A stretch of DNA of 24,939 nt from a virus, in the IMG/VR virus record IMGVR_UViG_3300046534_000828, positions 1 through 24,939 of that record; one strand, 5' to 3'. Below are positions 1 to 12,661 of the stretch, in pieces (positions within the stretch are counted from its first letter, which is position 1; each line of letters opens with the position of its first letter). The notes under the pieces were generated by a model that worked only from the letters and a program-made list of their open reading frames with translations, searched no databases and was not told the DNA's origin. The position numbers were made by a program, and so were the translations under genes.

Positions 1-289
1 GGCGGTAGCAGCCCCCAAATGGCCATCAACATGCCGATGCCGCAGCAATTGGCAGCACAGCCCCGAACCCGGCAGTGGGTGACCGGCCAGAGAAGCCACC
101 CGTGCAGGTGGCTACCCAGTTGGCACCTACTCAGAAGTCAGAACTTTGGAAGAAGTCAAAATTGTCAATAAACTATATGAGATAGTAACGAACCACCCAG
201 AAGGCGAGCGAGGCTATCTCCGGATGATTGACGAAGGCGACGGCGAGCTTGTCGCTAAGATATTCCGAGAAGCTAAGACGCCCGAATAA
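1..289 (+). CDS. Tandem paralog copy 1, 5'-partial, interrupted reading frame
   Basis: The gene enters from outside the window and ends at TAA 287-289. The frame starting at base 2 encodes AVAAP at its left end and a well-formed C-terminus (HPEGERGYLRMIDEGDGE, then VAKIFREAKTPE) at its right end, but carries an in-frame TGA at 80-82. The +1 frame is more protein-like in the middle, reading STAPNPAVGDRPEKPPVQVA. Copy 2 (294-623) shows exactly the same frame pattern. The gene therefore appears to need either UGA readthrough, or a +1 shift near the C run at 12-16 and a compensating -1 shift near 143-150. No family is recognised. Differences between the copies in the C-terminal part fall largely at third codon positions, which argues for selection on protein rather than for decay. 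Consensus sequence error is an alternative that cannot be excluded. Confidence 0.45.
94..113 (+). promoter_or_regulatory. Hairpin 11 nt after the in-frame TGA, copy 1
   Basis: AGCCACC (94-100) pairs perfectly with GGTGGCT (107-113) around the six-base loop CGTGCA. It begins 11 nucleotides after the TGA at 80-82. Placement resembles that of RNA elements that stimulate recoding, but no such role is proven. Confidence 0.45.
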
Positions 290-293
290 CACC

Positions 294-623
294 ATGAATC
301 AAGAAATTGAAATAACCAACGAAATGCTGGAAGCTGCCGCCGTCGCAGCCCCCAACTGGCCTGAAAACCGCCGGTGTCATCTGGACTGGCAACACAGCCC
401 CAAACCCGGCTGTGGGTGACCGGCCAGAGAGGCCGCCCGTGCAGGTGGCTACCCAGTTGGGAACATTCCAGAAGTCGGAACTGATGAAGAAGCTGAAATC
501 GTCTTCAAGCTGGAGAATATAGTGAGTGCCCACCCAGAAGGGGGGAGCTACACACGGATGATCGACGAAGGCAAAGGTGAGGATGTCGCTAAGATATTCA
601 GGGAGGCTAAAACAGAAGAATAG
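294..623 (+). CDS. Tandem paralog copy 2, interrupted reading frame
   Basis: It starts at ATG 294 (MNQEIEITNEMLEAAAVAAP), four bases after the stop of copy 1, without a Shine-Dalgarno site, and ends at TAG 621-623. The start frame contains an in-frame TGA at 417-419. The same frame resumes after the TGA with DEEAEIVFKLENIVSAHPEG and ends DVAKIFREAKTEE. The +1 frame reads TGNTAPNPAVGDRPERPP then VQVATQL in the middle, and is the more natural coding frame there. If translated as one chain with two shifts, the product would be about 110 residues. Function is unknown. The post-TGA segment has no in-frame ATG until 'RMIDEG', so it is unlikely to be an independent gene. It could instead be two short ORFs, or a decayed gene duplicated after decay. 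Confidence 0.5.
431..450 (+). promoter_or_regulatory. Hairpin 11 nt after the in-frame TGA, copy 2
   Basis: GGCCGCC (431-437) pairs with GGTGGCT (444-450) using two G-U wobbles, with the same CGTGCA loop and the same 11-nt distance from the TGA at 417-419. Both substitutions relative to copy 1 are A to G changes that keep the pairing. Confidence 0.45.
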
Positions 624-640
624 CACTACAACACACCCCC

Positions 641-670
641 GCCCGGTCCTTCAATGGGCCGGGCATTTCT
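641..670 (+). terminator. Probable intrinsic terminator
   Basis: GCCCGGTCC (641-649) pairs with GGGCCGGGC (656-664) over nine base pairs, one of them G-U, around the loop TTCAAT. It is followed by ATTTCT, a short and weak T tract. It lies between the interrupted paralog pair and the gene starting at 677, only 12 bases before that ATG. Downstream genes would then depend on leaky termination, antitermination or an unseen promoter. Confidence 0.7.
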
Positions 671-865: not shown

Positions 866-1152
866 TGTCCGAAATACCAATAATTAAAATAGAGCTTGAA
901 AGTATGCGGCAGACTATGTGTCATGCTTTCAGTAAACAGTTGTTAAACCTCGACGAGCAATTCAAGGTAGCAGTTGAAAATGCTACCAAACCTGAAGCAA
1001 TACAAAAGCTGTTAAATGCAAAGGCACATGAGTATATTCATGAATCAATTAACCAAGAAGTGAAACATTACTTTTTATATGGTGATGGTTTGTTAGCAAT
1101 CAAAGAACAAGTAAGAAAAAAGCTAGACGAAGAACTTGAAACACCAAACTAA
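865..1152 (+). CDS. Hypothetical protein, 95 aa
   Basis: A predicted mostly helical, soluble protein with no recognised family. It has a single cysteine (C19), and its C-terminus is highly charged (EQVRKKLDEELETPN). Its start overlaps the previous stop and its own stop overlaps the polymerase start, both as TAATG, so it is probably translated as part of one coupled unit. AT-rich codons (aaa, gaa, att, tta) distinguish it from the polymerase gene, hinting at a different origin. Its position directly upstream of the polymerase suggests a replication-associated role, but nothing in the sequence shows this. Confidence 0.65.
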   Translation: MSEIPIIKIELESMRQTMCHAFSKQLLNLDEQFKVAVENATKPEAIQKLLNAKAHEYIHESINQEVKHYFLYGDGLLAIKEQVRKKLDEELETPN

Positions 1153-3698
1153 TGTCCGAAGAACCAGAATTCAACCTAGACAACTTCTCCTTCAAACAAG
1201 AGAACCTAACCTCCACGCCTACTGTCCCTAACCGTCCGCCTACCTCACCTGCCCCATACAAAATCGCCTTCATTGACGAGTGGCCAGGTCCCGACGACTT
1301 CTCCTCGGGCATCGCGTTCACAGGTCGCGCAGGCAACGTACTAACCTCAGTCCTAACGCAACTAGGCGTCTTGTCCTCCGCGTGTTTCTACGGCTACGCC
1401 TACAACGCCGAAGTCAAGTTCCCTAAACGTTACCCTGACTGGCACTCCCTACAAGCCAACCGCTACCGCAACACCCTGCAAAAGGAGTTGAAAACTTTCA
1501 ACCCACACATCACAGTAATCATGGGTGACGCAGCGGCCAAAGGTCTAGGCATCATGAACAAGACCTCTGCCGCATGGCGGGGCAGTGTGTTTAAGTGTGA
1601 CGACCTAGACTCACCACTACTAGGCCGCAAGTGTATGATCGTCCAACACCCACTCATCATCATGAAACAATACGCATTCATGCCTTTGTTTCTCATGGAC
1701 TTGAGTCGTGCCAAACAACAAGGCACAAGTAAGGAACTCCCTGACCGCCGCAAGGACTATGCAGTAGACTTGTCATGTGGTGTGGTAGTACAAAAACTCC
1801 AACGCCTACGAGAGGAACAAAAGCTAGTCTCCATGGACATTGAAGGATACGTGAACAACGTCACGTGTATATCATTCACCAACACCGAGGGTGAGGCATT
1901 CATCGTTGACCTGTTATCGTGTTCACTCACAGAAGAGAAGATCTTACTCAAGGCCATCTCAGAACTATGCTACGATAAACTTGTACCTAAGGTCCTACAG
2001 AACTCCCTTTACGACTCCTTCGTACTAGCCTACACCTACAACATAGTCATTCGTAACATCCAGCACGACACAATGCTATCAGGTTGGGAGATCTACCCTG
2101 AACTACCCAAGGGCCTAGGCACGTTGACATCTATCTGGACCACTCATCCTTACTACAAGTCGGACAGAAAGATCAATGACAAGCTCACGCACCACAGGTA
2201 TTGTTGCACCGACTCCGACGTGACCCTTGAGATCTCAAAGGCACACCAGAAGAACCTAACCGGTCCTGCGCTCGAGCATTATAACTTCAACTTAAGTATG
2301 TTAGCCCCGCTCCTGTTCGCACAACTCAAAGGCATGAAGTACGACGGGGACAAGGCCAAGCAAATGTTAGGCCAGGTCAGTGTCCGCATGGACGAGATTC
2401 AGAACCGCCTCAACAATAGCACCTTCGACGGACGAGAGTTGAACATCAACTCACCTAAACAGATGCAGAACTTCCTATACAAAGAGAAGTCCCTGCCGAC
2501 TCAGTTCAAGATGCTAGCCGGTCGTGTGACTAACACACCCACCACTGACGTGAAGGCTTTGTTGAAACTCAACCGCAAGTTCGAGGAGCTATACCTGAGC
2601 GACATACTTCTCATGCGGAAGTTAGAAAAGCAACGACAAGGGTTGAACATGACTCACGACACGGATGGCCGAGTGCGGTGTAGCTACAACGTCGTGGGCA
2701 CTGACACAGGCAGACTAAGTTGCAGTAAATCCGCACATGGTACAGGCACGAACCTAACCACTATCCCTAAGGCATTCAGGAGTCTTTACCTAGCAGACGA
2801 GGGACACTACTTCTTCCAGTGTGACTTGGCAGGTGCCGACGGTTGGACAGTGGCCGCACACAGTAAGGCGTTAGGCGATCCGACTATGATCGACGACTAC
2901 AACTTCGGACTAAAGCCCGCCAAGATTATCGCGCTCCTATACAACCACGGACCCGAAGTCAACAAGTGGTCCCGTGACAAGATCCTCGAAGAAAGCAAGG
3001 CAATCGGCGATGGTTGGTTATACTTCTCTTCCAAGCAGGTGCAGCACGGCGGCAACTACGGACTAGGGGTAAGGGCAATGAGTGAGAACATCATGCTCCA
3101 AAGCTACAAGCGTAACAACGAGATGATTCTGGTGACGCCTAGTACGTGTCAGCAACTCAAAGACTTGTATCTCATCCATCGATACCCAGGAGTGATCCAG
3201 TGGCAGAATAGAATCAAGTACCAGTTCAGCAATGCACGTGGGTACCCTGAGATGAGCAGTGCGAGCGGACACACTAGAAGGTTCCTTGGAAGGAAGAAAG
3301 AGAACAGTACGCATCAAGCCGCGTATAGTCAAGAGCCTCAGATCAACACCACGTATGCGACTAACCTTGCGATTGTGAACATGTGGAATGATCCTGAGAA
3401 CAGGATTAAAGAAGCCGAAGAGTTTTCTCATGGATTCAAGTACACGACTCTGGATGGAAGCATACATACCACTACTAAGAACCATGAATTCAAAAGTGTG
3501 GGTGGGTTGCTCATCGAACCACTCCACCAAGTTCACGACGCCGCGTGCGGTCAGTTCCCTAAAGACCTACAGGTATGGGCGTGCAAGAAGATACGAAGTT
3601 ACTTCGACAATGAACTCAACATCGCGGGTACCAAGATGGTTATCCCGTTCGACGGAGAGTATGGCCGGAGTTGGGGAGAGATGGATAAACCACTATAA
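1152..3698 (+). CDS. Family A DNA polymerase with N-terminal uracil-DNA-glycosylase-like domain
   Basis: An 848-aa phage replicative polymerase. Residues ~36-190 match the layout of family 4/5 uracil-DNA glycosylases: FTGRAGNVL (56-64), MGDAAAKGLG (124-133), WRGSVF (142-147) and HPLII (166-170). A 3'-5' exonuclease domain follows, with DIE (229-231), QNSLYD (283-288) and Y350xxxD354. The polymerase domain has TDTGRLS (517-523), motif A CDLAGADGW (557-565, D558), motif B QHGGNYGLG (631-639) and motif C VHDA (794-797). Compared with Pol I, motif A lacks the usual steric-gate glutamate (D563 lies near its place), H632 lies where a lysine is usual, and motif C ends HDA instead of HDE. The start overlaps the upstream stop (TAATG). 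The role is genome replication, possibly coupled to uracil recognition; whether the glycosylase fold is active is unknown. Confidence 0.95.
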   Translation: MSEEPEFNLDNFSFKQENLTSTPTVPNRPPTSPAPYKIAFIDEWPGPDDFSSGIAFTGRAGNVLTSVLTQLGVLSSACFYGYAYNAEVKFPKRYPDWHSLQANRYRNTLQKELKTFNPHITVIMGDAAAKGLGIMNKTSAAWRGSVFKCDDLDSPLLGRKCMIVQHPLIIMKQYAFMPLFLMDLSRAKQQGTSKELPDRRKDYAVDLSCGVVVQKLQRLREEQKLVSMDIEGYVNNVTCISFTNTEGEAFIVDLLSCSLTEEKILLKAISELCYDKLVPKVLQNSLYDSFVLAYTYNIVIRNIQHDTMLSGWEIYPELPKGLGTLTSIWTTHPYYKSDRKINDKLTHHRYCCTDSDVTLEISKAHQKNLTGPALEHYNFNLSMLAPLLFAQLKGMKYDGDKAKQMLGQVSVRMDEIQNRLNNSTFDGRELNINSPKQMQNFLYKEKSLPTQFKMLAGRVTNTPTTDVKALLKLNRKFEELYLSDILLMRKLEKQRQGLNMTHDTDGRVRCSYNVVGTDTGRLSCSKSAHGTGTNLTTIPKAFRSLYLADEGHYFFQCDLAGADGWTVAAHSKALGDPTMIDDYNFGLKPAKIIALLYNHGPEVNKWSRDKILEESKAIGDGWLYFSSKQVQHGGNYGLGVRAMSENIMLQSYKRNNEMILVTPSTCQQLKDLYLIHRYPGVIQWQNRIKYQFSNARGYPEMSSASGHTRRFLGRKKENSTHQAAYSQEPQINTTYATNLAIVNMWNDPENRIKEAEEFSHGFKYTTLDGSIHTTTKNHEFKSVGGLLIEPLHQVHDAACGQFPKDLQVWACKKIRSYFDNELNIAGTKMVIPFDGEYGRSWGEMDKPL

Positions 3699-5512: not shown

Positions 5513-6792
5513 ACACCTACCTAGAAAACTACGCCATCTATTCCGGCGGTAATGAAGCACCACCAATCTACCACAAGTGGGCTGGTATCTGTTCACTGTC
5601 CTCGTTCGTATCTCGTAAAGTCTGGATCGACCAAGGGTTCTTTACCGTGTTTCCTAACCTCTACGTGATCTTCGTCGGCAATCCTGGTAACGGGAAGTCA
5701 ACCGCGATGAAAATCGGACGGGACTTAGTGCGTGAACTTGACCCTGAGTTCTGTCCTATCGTGCCAAGTTCCATCACTAAGGAATCTCTCACACAAGACG
5801 TGGGAGATGCAAGCGGTAAGTACCTGAAGTCCTACGAGTATGACGGTGAGCAAGTCCCATACACCCCGATTAACATCTACGCCAACGAGATCGTGACCCT
5901 ACTCGGGTCTAATCCTATCGGCATGATTGAGTTCTTCACAGACATCTGGGACGAGAAGGATGTGTTCGAGTCCAACACCAAGAACAAAGGCAAGGACAAG
6001 ATTGTGAAACCCTCGGTGAACTTGTGCGGCTGCATGACTCCTGAGATCACGGGCAACCTACTGAAAGAGAATATCATCAGTGGTGGGTTTGCACGTAGGT
6101 GTATATTCGTCTACGGCACACGACGCGGTAACCCCGTGCCGTTCCCTACAATCACCAAGGAACAAATCGAGGCACGTAACGCGTGCTTGGAGTGGGGCAA
6201 GGAACTCACCTCTACCGTTGGTGAGTTTAGCTGGCACCCAGAAGCACGAGAACTCTTCGAAGCATGGTATAAAGAAAACCATGACTTTGTGCAGAACAAT
6301 ACAGACGTGTGGTTGAACGGGTATTATACCAGCAAGAACGCACTTGTTATCAAGGTCGCTGCGCTTCTCGCGCTCGGCGAGTCCACAAACCTCACACTAC
6401 AAACCCATCATATCCAACAAGCTCTTGACTTACTAGCCGAGACCGAGGTGGATATGCACAAGGTGTTTGCGGGAACTGGACGTAATGCTGAGTCTGGTAT
6501 TGCGACTAAGATAATGGCTATGATCAACTCAGCGCCCAGTGGCAAGGTGCAGCAGAAGAAAGTTCTGTCTGTACTCTATGACCACGGGACGTATGATGAG
6601 ATCGAACGCGCAACTACACACCTTATTGGTACGGACCAACTAGACAGGTTTGTTAGCGGCCGCGTGACGTACTTGCAAAAGCATCGAGAAGACCAGACGA
6701 CTGATTCGACATCGTCGGCCTTAACAACTGATTTGCATATTGACCTAGCACAGGGACAGGCAGATTTGACTGCCCTCGAAGATTCTCTGTAA
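5509..6792 (+). CDS. P-loop ATPase, DUF3987-like, putative replicative helicase
   Basis: A 427-aa protein with a clear Walker A motif, FVGNPGNGKST (55-65). YANEIVTLLG (124-133) occupies the Walker B place but has NE instead of DE. A beta strand NLCGCMTPE (171-179) and the arginine-bearing GGFARRCIFVYG (192-203) resemble the sensor and arginine-finger parts of RecA/DUF3987-type ATPases found near phage replication genes. Residues ~330-395 look like a winged-helix domain. It most likely unwinds or loads at the replication fork with the polymerase and ligase upstream. There is no primase zinc finger or TOPRIM motif in it. Its last 140 bases overlap the 3' end of the convergent late gene; the last ~35 residues are low in complexity and may be dispensable. 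Confidence 0.8.
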   Translation: MNTYLENYAIYSGGNEAPPIYHKWAGICSLSSFVSRKVWIDQGFFTVFPNLYVIFVGNPGNGKSTAMKIGRDLVRELDPEFCPIVPSSITKESLTQDVGDASGKYLKSYEYDGEQVPYTPINIYANEIVTLLGSNPIGMIEFFTDIWDEKDVFESNTKNKGKDKIVKPSVNLCGCMTPEITGNLLKENIISGGFARRCIFVYGTRRGNPVPFPTITKEQIEARNACLEWGKELTSTVGEFSWHPEARELFEAWYKENHDFVQNNTDVWLNGYYTSKNALVIKVAALLALGESTNLTLQTHHIQQALDLLAETEVDMHKVFAGTGRNAESGIATKIMAMINSAPSGKVQQKKVLSVLYDHGTYDEIERATTHLIGTDQLDRFVSGRVTYLQKHREDQTTDSTSSALTTDLHIDLAQGQADLTALEDSL

Positions 6793-9700
6793 GCATTGCC
6801 TTCAGCATGTCATTTCCTGGGTTAGCACGTGGCCGACCCATTTCATTACCGATACGTATTTTAGTCCTAGCTTGATCCACCACACTTGTGCGGGGGAAGA
6901 GGCTAGGATTAAATGTGTCTAGGAGGTTTGACCTTTCCACTGACCCTTGTAGGCCGCCTTGTAGTCTCGGGTCAAAGCCGTTCGCATTTGTTGTAATGTG
7001 ACGCTCTAGGGCATTGAGTGCACTTGCTGCATCATACCCAAGCACGCTGCTCTCTTGCTGGTTGAGCATATTACGCGCGGCACCTATTCCCTTTTCCTCA
7101 TAGGTCTTGATATAGTCTTGCTTGAACCTGTCGTTCTTTTCACCTCGGATTCTATCCTGTGTGTAGGTTATATTAGCCGCGTCTCTTTGTGCAATAGTAC
7201 GTGACGGAGGGAATCCCAAGGTGGCCGCCATGCGTTCAGACTGCGTAGGCACCAACAACACATTACCACGCTTGTCGGTAATATTACCATTGTCTGTCCA
7301 CAGTTTCATCAACCGGCCTAGGCCAATAGGCAACGCCTCTGCGACACCTTTTGTCACGTCACCCTGAAACACACTCTTTATCCCGCCCATGTAGTCCTCA
7401 CCGCGTGACAGCGTAGGTCCCATGAGAGCCTTAGGTGACCAACCCTCAAAGGAGTTGAACCCGAGCAACCCGCCCATACTGATTCGTGAGCTGAAGTCCA
7501 TCGGCGCGCCCATAGCATACGAGATACCATGCGTACCCATGTCCGTGATAAACGTTCCTGGCTCATCGCCACCAAACGCCTTGTCGATTTCCTGTAGCCA
7601 CATGCGCTTAGTCTCCTCAGGCTTAAGTTGAGTGTGCTCCTCTGCCAACGCCATCGCGATGCCCGCACCTGGGATACCGCCGATAACACCGGCCATGGAC
7701 ATCAGTGAGACAGTGGACTGGATAAACGCTTTCTTTGCCTGTCTACGTTCAGCAGGTGTGAACCCTCTGTCCTCTCTTCCGTATCCTTTTTGCGCATACC
7801 TATACACGTTACTCAACTGTCCTGACGCAAAGCCAGCCAACGAGTGTACCGACTGTGCCACAGTTCGCCAAGGACCGCTATTGTCAAACAAGTGTGTCGC
7901 CCTGTCCAAACGCCCGATACTATTGTTGGCTATGCCAGAGATCCGCACGGCCTCATTATACATAGCGTCGAACTCGTTCTTAGTAATAACCTTGTCCTTG
8001 CCTTTTATGGTGGCTTTGCCCTGACGCTTACTCATCTGTAACTCCATAGCACTGATGATACTCACTCGCTCGTTGAAGCCTGTGAACAATCCGTAGAGTT
8101 TACTACTAGCATCAACTGCTGACCCGTATGCAGTCCCGGCAAGTTTCCCAGGACTCAATGCTGACTTCCCCTGACTCATACGCCCTAAGTTAATCTGCTC
8201 TAGCATTCCTGCTTGTGCATCCATGGCTTCTTGTCGTTGGCCTAGTCCAATCAGACCTTGCTCATCGGCCTTACGTATTAGCATGTCATACATATCCCGG
8301 TGCTTACCATTGACGTTAACCCGAGTCCCAGAGTTCCACTTACCAGTGCTACCATGCTCGGTTAACTTGGCAGCGGCCGCCAGTGGTAGTTGGTAGCTTT
8401 GGATAATACCCGCACCTTCTTCCACTAATTTAGGTGACACGTTTAACGGTGCTTGGGTGGCCTCCAGTAGACCGGAGCTGATATTGAACCCTAGAAAGTG
8501 CAAGAAGTTACCCTTGGTTATGGCCTTACCTGTTGCGGTGTCAGGTTGCCTAAAGTTTGCAAGCGCACGTTGGGCATCAGCAAACGCAACCACGTTTGCA
8601 TCATTATTAACAATCTCTGGGTTCTTTGCTTCGAAGCGCATGATTGCATCTGTCTGAGACTTAGGTACAAGACTCGTCATCTTCTGCATATACCGCAGGT
8701 GCTGTTCAATAAAGTCTAGCTCCTCTCGTCCCGCGCGTAAGTTGTTCTTTACATCCACACTCCCTAGTTCCTTACTAGTGTTCTCGGAACTAAATGCACT
8801 GCGGAAAGACTCCCGTGACGCTTTTATCGCATCATAACCAGCCTGGGTCACCTCGCCTGTTTGAACGAGTTGTTCTAACGTAGCTAACGTGGTCCTATCG
8901 TCAGCAGCGGTGAGTAAGTCGTCTAGGTTTTTACTCTGCTTATTGGCATTGCCAAATTTTGTGTGTGTGTCGAGGAAACCTTTACCAGGGTAGTGCACCT
9001 TAGTCCCTTCGGCCCTGAGTTCTTTGACTCTCAACGCCGCTTGTTCAGGTCTGTCGAAACTTAACCTACCAGGACTTGGGTCACCCTTTTTCGTAAAGCT
9101 CACATGGTATTGCTTCATGCGTCGTTCAGTCACAAGGAAGTTACTGTTCTCAAACATCGCACCTTTCTTGGCCAAGAGTTGAGTGGAACTCTTCAGGAAG
9201 ATTTCAGGAACCTTAGGGTTGATTTTGTGGTGTGCTGCGAGTTGTTGGAATGAGCCATCGTTACGCTCATAGGCCGCGAACATTTCCTTGCTTGCCTTGA
9301 GTACCTGCGCATTACTCCCACTCATCTGATCGCGGAGTAAGGTGGCTAGGTTATACTGTTCATTCTTCTTGTCTGTACTAAGGATCTCGCTTTGCATACG
9401 CTTGTTGCTCTGCGTGATTCTTGCCATGGTCTCTAGCACATCGCCTTTTTGATTAGGAGTTAAGTCCTTTAGCAGGTCATTGTAGGCCTTCGGGTCTTGT
9501 AGTTTCAGGTCAAAGATACTTATGTTATTCTCACGCTGGTATAGGTGCGCCATGTTCACCGCCTCGAAAGCTTTCTGGTCATTATACACCCGACCAACTG
9601 GCCCTTTGTCTTTGGGTACAATCACCTTGCCATTAGGTAGTACTTCTTTGGAGAACATGAACACCACTAGACTTCTCTGTAGTTCATTCCTCATACCTTT

Positions 9701-12661
9701 CTCACCCCTGAAGGCTTGACCAATGTCCCTGAAGTGTGCGTTGCGCTCGATCTTGTGCATCTCGCCTTCACCCATACCAGACAACACCCTGCGCAACTTA
9801 CTATCACGCCCAAGGAACATGGCGTCGAGCATCAGGTCTGTGGACTTATTCCCATCACCGAAGTCTAACTTACTTCCGTCGATTTCCATGTCCGCCCACA
9901 CTCTACCAAGGCCGCCAACTGTGCTACGGTCTAGTGCCGCGAACTCAGCTTGTGACTTGATATTGTCCATGTCTAACTTCCGTCCAGCCTTGTCGATTTG
10001 ACTTTTAAACTTCCGGACACTCTTGAGACTACTGAGCTTCTGTCCACGCAGTGTGTTGAGTCCCATGAGTCCTTTGACTCCCGCGAGACTATCACGCAGA
10101 AATTGCATAGCGGCCACGGCAAAGTCGTACAATCGCTGAGAGCTGTACATAAACGACTTGTGCACGTCGCCACCCTTGGCACTAGTGTGCGCGAGTATCC
10201 CTGCCACGTTAGACATGACCTCATCCACACTATTTGAAGTCTTCTCAAACACCGGGTCTAGTTGATCCCTGAGTTCTTTAGGTAGGTTCAGTTCAGACAA
10301 CTCCCGCAACATCTTCGTCCGTTGCGCAGGAGTCATAGTTGTGATGTCATCGACTAGACGGCCGTATGACTTCATACTACGCGAGTCGAGTTTGCCGAGT
10401 TCAAACAGCTTCTTAAACTGATGGCCTAGTATCTCGTGCGATGCTACGAAGGTAGCCATGTCGCCTTTGTTTAGTTTGTTCAGGAAGACAGCGTTCTGGA
10501 CTGAGGAGCGGGAACTAAGTCCGGCGACAGAGCCCGATGGGTCTAGGATAGATCCCACGGACACGTCCTCGCCTGTAAGACGTTGAAACATGTCCGCAAT
10601 TTTGGCTACTTCAGGTGCGAGTGCACGCGCTTTGCCAGGGTCGACTCCATCGCGCATCATCACGAGTGTGGCCGCACGTACTGTGTCACCAGAGTTGGCG
10701 TCGAGGGGTCCGTCTAGTTCAGGCCGTCCGTTGTAGTCGTCTCGGAAGGTATCGGTCACAGTCCTATTGTCAGGATCAGACGAGGGGACAACGCTTTCTA
10801 GTGTAACGTGTTTTGCGGCTGCTATTGAGTCGTCTGCCTGGATGTTCAGCGACTCCTTATCGAACATACCTTTGAGGGCGTTAATGTCTTTGTTCTTCTT
10901 TGCTAACCACGTGGATAGGACGCGCGCACCACGGTTGGTCTGATTGGAAATATGGAGGGTGTTGCCGGTTCTGTCAAGGAATTCTTGGTACGCTTTGTTG
11001 GCATTAGTGACTAGACCTTTGTCAGGAAGTGACTCGAGTCTGTCAAAGACTGTATTGAAGTCCTCGTTTGGTACTGTTTCCTTACGGCCAGTTTTATTTT
11101 TCCCTTTCGCCCCTGTTGCTTTGCGGCGTGTGTCATTAGTCTTGGCATTGTCTAGACGTTTCACAAGATCCTTCAGGTCTTTGCCGGAAGCTTTCCAATT
11201 ACTTACTATATTCGCAATGTCGTTAAAGAGTTCCAAGTTATCCTTGTTCCTATTCAAGCGTCTCTCGACAAGCCTAGTGACCACAGGGTCTGCACCTTTG
11301 CCATAACTCAGAACCTTCATGACATCACTCATAGTGTTTATTTTGTCAATCTCGATCACCTCTTCGTTCTTGACCTTCTGAATCACGGTCTCGATGGGTT
11401 CCTCTGACTTACCTTGCTTCGCTACTGCCTCGACTTGCTTTGCCAGAGTCATATCGTTGTGTGGGACTTTGCCTTGGACGGCCCTTAGACTGTTTACATC
11501 CGCGATCTGTGCTTGCGCTTCGGCCATATCGACTGGACGTTTGGCCGCATGGTCTAGGATAGTCTTACTATACATAGCCTCGGTTTGTACGCGGAGAGGT
11601 GTAGGCATACCGACATCGAATGCAGTTGCGACTGAGTTGCCGAAGATACTAGTGCCGGACTTCTCGTTTGGAGTGTAAGTGGACTTCAGTGGACCCTCGA
11701 CTGGACCTGAACGTACAAGTTGTGGCCCTTCCTGCGGACCTATACGTACGAGTTGTGGCCCCTCGACTGCACCTATACGGACGTTGTATGGTGCAGGTGA
11801 TGGCCCTTCTACAGGAGCAGCATTAGCAAGTGCGTCGGCGGCAGCTTGTGCCTCGTCTAGTGCAGCTGTCTTTTTACCATCCGCGATGTTTTTAGTTCCG
11901 CGTACTTGTGCAGTAATAGCTTGCTTGACGTCAAGAGGTGCGAAGGCTAGGTTACCAATAGCTTGTGCCGCCCAGTAATCTGACGTACCCATCTCACTAT
12001 ACGAACGTTCCTCAGCAAGTCCTATGTCAGCCATGTCTACACCTGTGTCATAGATAAAGGAGTCAAGTAGGTTGCCGGAGAACCGTGCGGCTGTCCCACC
12101 CACGGCATTGGAGGTAAGCTTTGTTCCGATCTTTGCAGCTGCGTCTACTCCGAATAGTTTCGTGCCTGCGCTTGTGCCAAGTGCTTTTGTGGCTAGTCCT
12201 GACGAGATCTTACCGATGGCTAAAGGTGCAGCAATCGCAGCTCCCGCACCAAGTGCCGCGCGTGCCTTACTACCAGTTTGTTCGAATTGGTTTGAACCGG
12301 CCATATAAGCACTTACACCTATTCCTAGTGGTCCTAACATAGCCGGGAGTAAGTCAACTGCACCACGTGGTAAAGCCTCACCTACCTGACGACCTAGTTC
12401 CTCTTTGCCCATCAGACTACCGGCAAAGCCACCAATGTCTCGACCGACCTCGTTCGCACCAGAAGCTTCCAGTAAGAAGTTATGTCCGGCAGACGCTATT
12501 TTCACTCCTCGACCAAACATGTTGGTCTTACCAGCGTCAAAGCTATCGGAGTTCGTCATCTTGTTTCCAAGATCTGAGAACTGCTCAAGGGACATTGACT
12601 CTAGTTCAGGTGGCCGTTCACGGTAGGCCAGCTCGACGTTAAAGAAAGGTAGTTTGCTCAT
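6653..12661 (-). CDS. Giant virion protein (2002 aa) with HExxH zincin motif
   Basis: The largest gene and the last of the late block, a common place for podovirus internal or ejection proteins. Residues ~100-165 are Ala/Gly-rich and hydrophobic. A second hydrophobic stretch with MSMAGVIGGIPGAGIAMALA lies in the C-terminal quarter. Both could insert into or cross a membrane. HEILGH (742-747) in the context FVASHEILGHQF is a zinc-metallopeptidase signature. Residues 284-324 carry short EGPQLVR repeats. No lysozyme, transglycosylase or RNA polymerase motif was recognised. The likely role is an ejected virion protein that helps DNA enter the cell, with possible peptidase activity on cell wall, membrane or virion proteins. 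The start follows an SD-less leader, AACCAATAAACTATG. Confidence 0.8.
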   Translation of the reverse strand: MSKLPFFNVELAYRERPPELESMSLEQFSDLGNKMTNSDSFDAGKTNMFGRGVKIASAGHNFLLEASGANEVGRDIGGFAGSLMGKEELGRQVGEALPRGAVDLLPAMLGPLGIGVSAYMAGSNQFEQTGSKARAALGAGAAIAAPLAIGKISSGLATKALGTSAGTKLFGVDAAAKIGTKLTSNAVGGTAARFSGNLLDSFIYDTGVDMADIGLAEERSYSEMGTSDYWAAQAIGNLAFAPLDVKQAITAQVRGTKNIADGKKTAALDEAQAAADALANAAPVEGPSPAPYNVRIGAVEGPQLVRIGPQEGPQLVRSGPVEGPLKSTYTPNEKSGTSIFGNSVATAFDVGMPTPLRVQTEAMYSKTILDHAAKRPVDMAEAQAQIADVNSLRAVQGKVPHNDMTLAKQVEAVAKQGKSEEPIETVIQKVKNEEVIEIDKINTMSDVMKVLSYGKGADPVVTRLVERRLNRNKDNLELFNDIANIVSNWKASGKDLKDLVKRLDNAKTNDTRRKATGAKGKNKTGRKETVPNEDFNTVFDRLESLPDKGLVTNANKAYQEFLDRTGNTLHISNQTNRGARVLSTWLAKKNKDINALKGMFDKESLNIQADDSIAAAKHVTLESVVPSSDPDNRTVTDTFRDDYNGRPELDGPLDANSGDTVRAATLVMMRDGVDPGKARALAPEVAKIADMFQRLTGEDVSVGSILDPSGSVAGLSSRSSVQNAVFLNKLNKGDMATFVASHEILGHQFKKLFELGKLDSRSMKSYGRLVDDITTMTPAQRTKMLRELSELNLPKELRDQLDPVFEKTSNSVDEVMSNVAGILAHTSAKGGDVHKSFMYSSQRLYDFAVAAMQFLRDSLAGVKGLMGLNTLRGQKLSSLKSVRKFKSQIDKAGRKLDMDNIKSQAEFAALDRSTVGGLGRVWADMEIDGSKLDFGDGNKSTDLMLDAMFLGRDSKLRRVLSGMGEGEMHKIERNAHFRDIGQAFRGEKGMRNELQRSLVVFMFSKEVLPNGKVIVPKDKGPVGRVYNDQKAFEAVNMAHLYQRENNISIFDLKLQDPKAYNDLLKDLTPNQKGDVLETMARITQSNKRMQSEILSTDKKNEQYNLATLLRDQMSGSNAQVLKASKEMFAAYERNDGSFQQLAAHHKINPKVPEIFLKSSTQLLAKKGAMFENSNFLVTERRMKQYHVSFTKKGDPSPGRLSFDRPEQAALRVKELRAEGTKVHYPGKGFLDTHTKFGNANKQSKNLDDLLTAADDRTTLATLEQLVQTGEVTQAGYDAIKASRESFRSAFSSENTSKELGSVDVKNNLRAGREELDFIEQHLRYMQKMTSLVPKSQTDAIMRFEAKNPEIVNNDANVVAFADAQRALANFRQPDTATGKAITKGNFLHFLGFNISSGLLEATQAPLNVSPKLVEEGAGIIQSYQLPLAAAAKLTEHGSTGKWNSGTRVNVNGKHRDMYDMLIRKADEQGLIGLGQRQEAMDAQAGMLEQINLGRMSQGKSALSPGKLAGTAYGSAVDASSKLYGLFTGFNERVSIISAMELQMSKRQGKATIKGKDKVITKNEFDAMYNEAVRISGIANNSIGRLDRATHLFDNSGPWRTVAQSVHSLAGFASGQLSNVYRYAQKGYGREDRGFTPAERRQAKKAFIQSTVSLMSMAGVIGGIPGAGIAMALAEEHTQLKPEETKRMWLQEIDKAFGGDEPGTFITDMGTHGISYAMGAPMDFSSRISMGGLLGFNSFEGWSPKALMGPTLSRGEDYMGGIKSVFQGDVTKGVAEALPIGLGRLMKLWTDNGNITDKRGNVLLVPTQSERMAATLGFPPSRTIAQRDAANITYTQDRIRGEKNDRFKQDYIKTYEEKGIGAARNMLNQQESSVLGYDAASALNALERHITTNANGFDPRLQGGLQGSVERSNLLDTFNPSLFPRTSVVDQARTKIRIGNEMGRPRANPGNDMLKAMLTENLRGQSNLPVPVLGQYANQLLRPTMSNQSSGLLDAFASTSRGR
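11693..11812 (-). repeat. 33-bp repeats encoding EGPQLVR peptides
   Basis: Inside the 2002-aa gene, AVEGPQLVRIG (residues 298-308) is followed directly by PQEGPQLVRSG (309-319), with partial copies PVEGP before (283-287) and after (320-324). Each full unit is 33 bases. It lies between the hydrophobic N-terminal region and the coil-rich middle, so it is probably a flexible linker. Confidence 0.7.

Follow-up and report, generated by a model that had tools for sequence, protein, structure and literature searches.

A tandemly duplicated small phage gene with a shared in-frame UGA and a conserved hairpin directly behind it

Two tandem copies of a small gene at the left end of a tailed-phage record share an in-frame UGA at the same aligned place, show conservation of the start frame on both sides of this codon and carry, from the very next base, an RNA hairpin that is itself conserved between the copies (Table 1). 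We regard the pair as a real and unusual feature, and we tentatively propose that the internal UGA is recoded in frame, either by selenocysteine insertion or by plain readthrough. An initial annotation of this region had noted the shared interruption and had offered UGA readthrough or a pair of compensating frameshifts as its cause; the observation is partly confirmed by our analysis, and of the interpretation it is the readthrough half that finds support. That annotation did not mention the hairpin that follows the TGA directly, and we add it here. The window, meaning the whole stretch of DNA that was analysed (24,939 bases), is the entire virus record IMGVR_UViG_3300046534_000828, and nothing of the record lies beyond it.

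Table 1. Features of the tandem gene pair, in coordinates of the window.
Feature	Position	Strand	Remarks
Copy 1 of the small gene, start-frame reading	2..289	+	5' end lost at contig end; TAA 287-289
In-frame TGA, copy 1	80..82	+	Next base C
Conserved block, copy 1	50..123	+	5/74 sites differ; 0/13 four-fold sites
RNA hairpin directly 3' of TGA, copy 1	83..123	+	-16.9 kcal/mol; shuffle z -2.2
C-terminal segment, copy 1, start frame	137..286	+	Predicted helical; 35/50 residues identical; no separate start codon at a shared position
Copy 2 of the small gene	294..623	+	ATG 294 to TAG 621-623; 109 codons, internal TGA included
In-frame TGA, copy 2	417..419	+	Next base C; same aligned place as in copy 1
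Conserved block, copy 2	387..460	+	
Same RNA hairpin, copy 2	420..460	+	Both differences from copy 1 (94/431, 98/435) change A-U to G-U
C-terminal segment, copy 2, start frame	474..620	+	Residue conservation; predicted helices
Terminator-like hairpin behind copy 2	641..664	+	Weak: 3 found vs 2.2 in shuffles

The duplication that had been proposed for this region is borne out by direct comparison. A blastn alignment of copy 1 with copy 2 extends over 291 nt at 73.9% identity (E 1e-46), and self-comparison of the repeat returns 203 nt at 75% plus 72 nt at 79%. Over 285 aligned bases, the copies differ at 74 positions and by a single indel, which is 3 nt long and in frame, and 67 of the 95 start-frame codons specify the same residue in both. 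As described before, the internal TGAs lie in register, in the frame of ATG 294, and the C-termini are back in the start frame, which runs to a TAA in one copy and a TAG in the other. A convincing start had been claimed for both copies; this stands for copy 2, whose N-terminal segment (294-350) is coding-like in the start frame, but not for copy 1, where the contig starts inside the gene and the first 15 codons are missing. Position 1 is thus a contig break within the first repeat copy, and the missing part upstream may contain further copies. The runs of five C that had been pointed out are present at 12-16 and 349-353, with CCC followed by AAA or AAC in both copies. On the reverse strand, a 117-codon open frame (273-626) spans copy 2; stops break this frame in copy 1, and we consider it a probable chance ORF rather than a true gene.

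The proteins encoded in the record are those of a tailed phage and include DNA polymerase A, ligase, primase, an SU10-type major capsid protein, portal, terminase and an amidase endolysin. The capsid protein matches PF17236 (E 3e-31), and homologous capsid, portal, polymerase and primase place the record in the SU10-MCP-type group of tailed phages. Annotated relatives detected by tblastn, among them Caulobacter phage Kuura, Microcystis phage Mel-JY34, Vibrio phage ABTNL-3 and Polaromonas phage Tiera, are mostly 43-45 kb phages with only 22-30% identity. They carry small early genes without known function upstream of the polymerase, and the tandem pair occupies the same location. Given this genome size and the position of the early genes in relatives, about 18 kb, including the early region, are probably absent from the left side of the record. 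The DNA polymerase A (1152-3698) features an N-terminal domain of the uracil-DNA-glycosylase superfamily (PF03167, residues 34-168), and an alignment reveals residues of this region that are common to four distant phage polymerases. Further downstream, a 2002-residue ORF on the minus strand (6653-12661) has no match in PHROG and Pfam; very long ORFs stand at its place in Mel-JY34 and Tiera, and its 3' end overlaps that of the convergent primase ORF by 140 bases (6653-6792).

The genetic code of the record is standard, as the other genes contain 0 in-frame TGA and 87 TGG codons among 7,775 codons and four of them use TGA as their terminal stop. These counts rule out a genome-wide reassignment of UGA (code 4 or 25), and the in-frame UGA of the tandem pair therefore requires a local cause. 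A search of the window for tRNA genes returned none.

Which frame is under constraint was assessed by comparing the copies with shuffles that place the same base changes at random within the same stretch. Since only two paralogs are compared and several overlapping stretches were tested, p values of about 0.02-0.07 are to be read as weak. Upstream of the TGA, the start frame yields p values of about 0.02 for identity and 0.001 for BLOSUM scores over 2-79, and of 0.06 and 0.0003, respectively, over 14-79; the identity values are modest, and the BLOSUM signal depends on a few Trp and Cys residues. Downstream of the TGA, the number of identical residues at 137-286 (Table 1) compares with 23.7 expected (p < 0.0003). 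Neither of the remaining frames is constrained at 2-79 or at 137-286. The in-frame UGA is thus flanked by conserved coding sequence in the two paralogs, with moderate support upstream and strong support downstream.

Around the TGA, the copies share a block of strikingly low divergence. Five of its 74 sites differ, whereas the flanks do so at 47 of 130 sites (Fisher p 2e-6), corresponding to identities of 93% and 64%, and none of its 13 start-frame four-fold sites differ, compared with 9 of 21 in the flanks (Fisher p 0.006). The differences within the block, at positions 55, 65, 74, 94 and 98, all fall at codon position 1 or 3. The initial annotation had stated for the central part that differences never occur at codon position 2; this is correct inside 50-123, on the basis of these five differences, but fails just outside, at 126 and 129. 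The last base of the block coincides with the end of the 3' arm of the hairpin.

The hairpin itself begins with the base right after the UGA and consists of CCGGC, a 7-bp upper stem, the hexaloop CGUGCA, the returning strand of the stem and GUUGG. The loop lies 18 nt from the UGA and presents G and U at +23/+24, counted from the U of UGA. The only two differences between the copies within the hairpin leave its pairs intact. When the 41-mers downstream of all 953 TGAs in the window, counted over both strands, are ranked by stability, copy 1 comes first and copy 2 third, a result that counts once, because the copies are not independent and the block is locally G+C-rich. Loop bases G and U at +23/+24 in combination with an energy of -13 kcal/mol or lower occur behind just these two of the 953 TGAs, and of dinucleotide shuffles of the two hairpins, 0.5% (copy 1) and 2.3% (copy 2) match them in loop type and energy. 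Some caution is warranted in that, when folded with surrounding sequence, the copies favour partly different structures. No known RNA family was detected in the region, where a single match stayed below the threshold. Copy 2 also has a 9-bp complement around its middle, which was considered as a bypass element and set aside, since copy 1 keeps just 7 of the 9 pairs.

On the proposed reading, each copy would be one gene in one frame, and part of the ribosomes would recode the internal UGA in response to the hairpin that begins at the following base. Termination at the UGA would release a 41-residue peptide, and recoding would produce a 109-residue helical protein. The hairpin might act as a bacterial SECIS element, with the SelB and tRNA-Sec of the host inserting selenocysteine; alternatively, it may merely stimulate readthrough of the UGA by a near-cognate tRNA. 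In-frame readthrough is the simplest account of the constraint on the start frame on both sides of the stop, the lack of a second start (no ATG, GTG or TTG occurs between the UGA and the conserved downstream region of copy 2), the hairpin at the stop in both copies and the conservation that ends with it, and the readthrough initially suggested gains support from the same features. These features are observed, whereas production of the full-length protein and the tRNA used are inferred. Selenocysteine as the recoded residue is doubtful and hard to tell from an ordinary amino acid, as no Cys homolog was found in the collections searched and there is no known selenoprotein family and no bulged U17. 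The fuller scenario, in which the phage would encode a tandem-duplicated selenoprotein outside known families, with SECIS hairpins of its own for host SelB, likewise appears rather unlikely.

If the UGA is recoded, a tailed phage would use a hairpin that follows a stop codon to control a two-copy small early gene, and if the residue is selenocysteine, the product would be a phage selenoprotein. Genes of such kind are split or dropped by gene finders.

Searches for relatives of the gene with C-terminal, +1-frame and start-frame peptides, with DNA patterns and with alignments found no homologs in viral_contigs, genome_contigs and phages, where the queries were short (peptides of 40-70 residues, patterns of 7-8 residues) and where close kin of the record may fall outside the collections. 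Within the collections searched, no homolog with Cys at the UGA position was found. Three family libraries contained no match for the gene and assigned it to no known selenoprotein family, and the stretches fetched for 80 distant polymerase relatives (at best 32% identical) include no copy of the gene or of the hairpin. For lack of a homolog, the case rests wholly on the two sequences. The lone pattern match (L087, ...AREASRAGGYPP...) proved to lie in an unrelated zinc-finger-like ORF. This 54-residue ORF ends in DAREASRAGGYPPYRPRLE (L087 5107-5138), which resembles the post-UGA sequence PAREA(A/T)RAGGYPVG, a similarity that we judge to be due to chance.

An AlphaFold model of the read-through protein, calculated from two-sequence input, is all-helical (pLDDT 75, pTM 0.70), with the lowest confidence at residues 21-40. 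A structure search with this model returned no structural neighbour, and we accordingly assign no function. The possibility of a glutaredoxin-like selenoprotein (GxGU motif) found no support in NCBIfam or in the model.

The main rival to recoding is gene conversion in a dead or truncated gene pair, which we consider quite possible. Here, the copies would first have diverged while functional; a stop or frame damage would then have arisen in one of them and spread to the other through a conversion tract of about 50-123, so that only the 41-residue peptide, or nothing useful, would be made now and the constraint on the C-terminal part would be a memory of an earlier state. Shared decay had initially been judged hard to reconcile with two diverged copies that keep the same interruption, but such a tract could carry the TGA into both. 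Indeed, the TGA sits inside the sole highly identical stretch of the repeat, and divergence in this stretch is low at all codon positions, four-fold sites included, as conversion would leave it. A dead gene would also fit the poor make-up of the start frame ahead of the TGA and the lack of detectable homologs. However, the C-terminal frame is clean in both copies, its one indel being in frame, and the rest of the record is free of damage. Moreover, conversion does not predict that the end of the tract should coincide exactly with that of a hairpin adjacent to the stop.

A double frameshift, with a +1 shift at the Pro codon in CCCCC-A and a -1 shift around QKSEL, would place the middle of the gene in the +1 frame, with peptides such as ...NPAVGDRPERPPVQ..., and it was in this frame that the initial annotation had found the middle more natural. 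With respect to composition we agree: at 14-79, the +1 frame shows ordinary codon and residue use in both copies, whereas the start frame scores lower than any window of the record's known genes (fraction 0.000, both copies), in part because its peptide PNWPENRRCHLDWQHSPKPGCG is unusual in Cys, Trp and His content. Conservation points the other way. Directly after the C-run (14-57), identical codons number 4 of 14 in the +1 frame, against 5.1 expected, and 7 of 14 in the start frame, against 4.6 expected. Judged from these two sequences, composition and conservation thus appear to be in conflict at 14-79, where the +1 constraint needed for a double shift is absent (p 0.4-0.5) and the start frame is the constrained one. 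A weak +1 signal is present at 59-139 (BLOSUM p 0.03) and at 75-182 (identity p 0.02; overall p 0.02-0.07), and +1 shifts at proline codons are known from Listeria phages (PMC5009743). Nevertheless, two programmed events would be needed per copy, reading both sequences revealed no conserved X_XXY_YYZ heptamer at which the return shift could occur, and the hairpin lies behind the UGA and behind neither shift site. The double shift has therefore lost ground and is unlikely.

Less probable still is a pair of overlapping short genes, in which the 41-residue peptide ending at the UGA would be followed by a +1 ORF from GTG 75/412 (GTGGGTGA) to TAG 183/520, coupled by reinitiation or reached by a +1 shift at GGG_UGA_C. 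The stop/start overlap exists in both copies, the +1 stop falls at the same aligned place and both frames show weak constraint at 75-182, but the arrangement does not account for the strong constraint on the start frame at 137-286, and no Shine-Dalgarno-like sequence was seen. Finally, that both copies carry a sequencing or assembly error, as their location at a contig end and within a repeat might suggest, is highly improbable, since the error would have to recur identically at the same place in two diverged copies and the 19 other genes are intact over 23,325 bases that include 32 homopolymers of at least 5, six of them of C or G.

Among known recoding systems, bypassing in T4 gene 60 (PMC5009743) resembles the present case in that two coding parts surround a structured, non-coding-looking stretch. 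Here, however, no matched take-off and landing codons were noticed around the stop, the stretch measures about 110 nt, and the parts share one frame with conserved residues in between. A +1 frameshift at a Pro codon has been described in the Listeria phages PSA, A118 and A500 (PMC5009743), which likewise have a phage gene with a CCC codon and a UGA stop downstream; there, CCC is followed by UGA, whereas here AAA or AAC comes next, the product would require a second shift and no +1 constraint is found past the site. Programmed readthrough of UGA aided by a 3' RNA structure shares with the tandem pair the UGA-C context, a structure right downstream and resumption of the same frame. It differs in that the present hairpin follows the UGA without a spacer.

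With respect to selenocysteine insertion, a phage tRNA-Sec gene has been reported (PMC6145125), and our literature search for a phage selenoprotein gene found none. Published constraints on bacterial SECIS elements comprise a loop of 3-9 nt, an upper stem of 4-16 bp, a G in the first two loop bases, a distance of 16-37 nt from the UGA and an energy at or below -7.5 (PMC13188914). The hairpin agrees with all of them (6-nt loop, 7-bp stem, 18 nt, energy far below -7.5), in a model that is lenient, as 72 of the 953 TGAs of the window also pass. Compared with bacterial selenoprotein genes, the tandem pair stands out by its location in a phage, by the lack of a Cys homolog in the collections searched and by its place outside known selenoprotein families. 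E. coli SelB needs a bulged U17. This base is present in E. coli fdhF, whereas +17 is a C within the upper stem here; the general model of bacterial SECIS elements does not demand it. The likeness to the 42-base region of fdhF, whose sequence we confirmed in 5,368 genomes, lies in the overall arrangement: in both, the UGA is followed immediately by a stem-loop, and the apical loop carries G and U at +23/+24.
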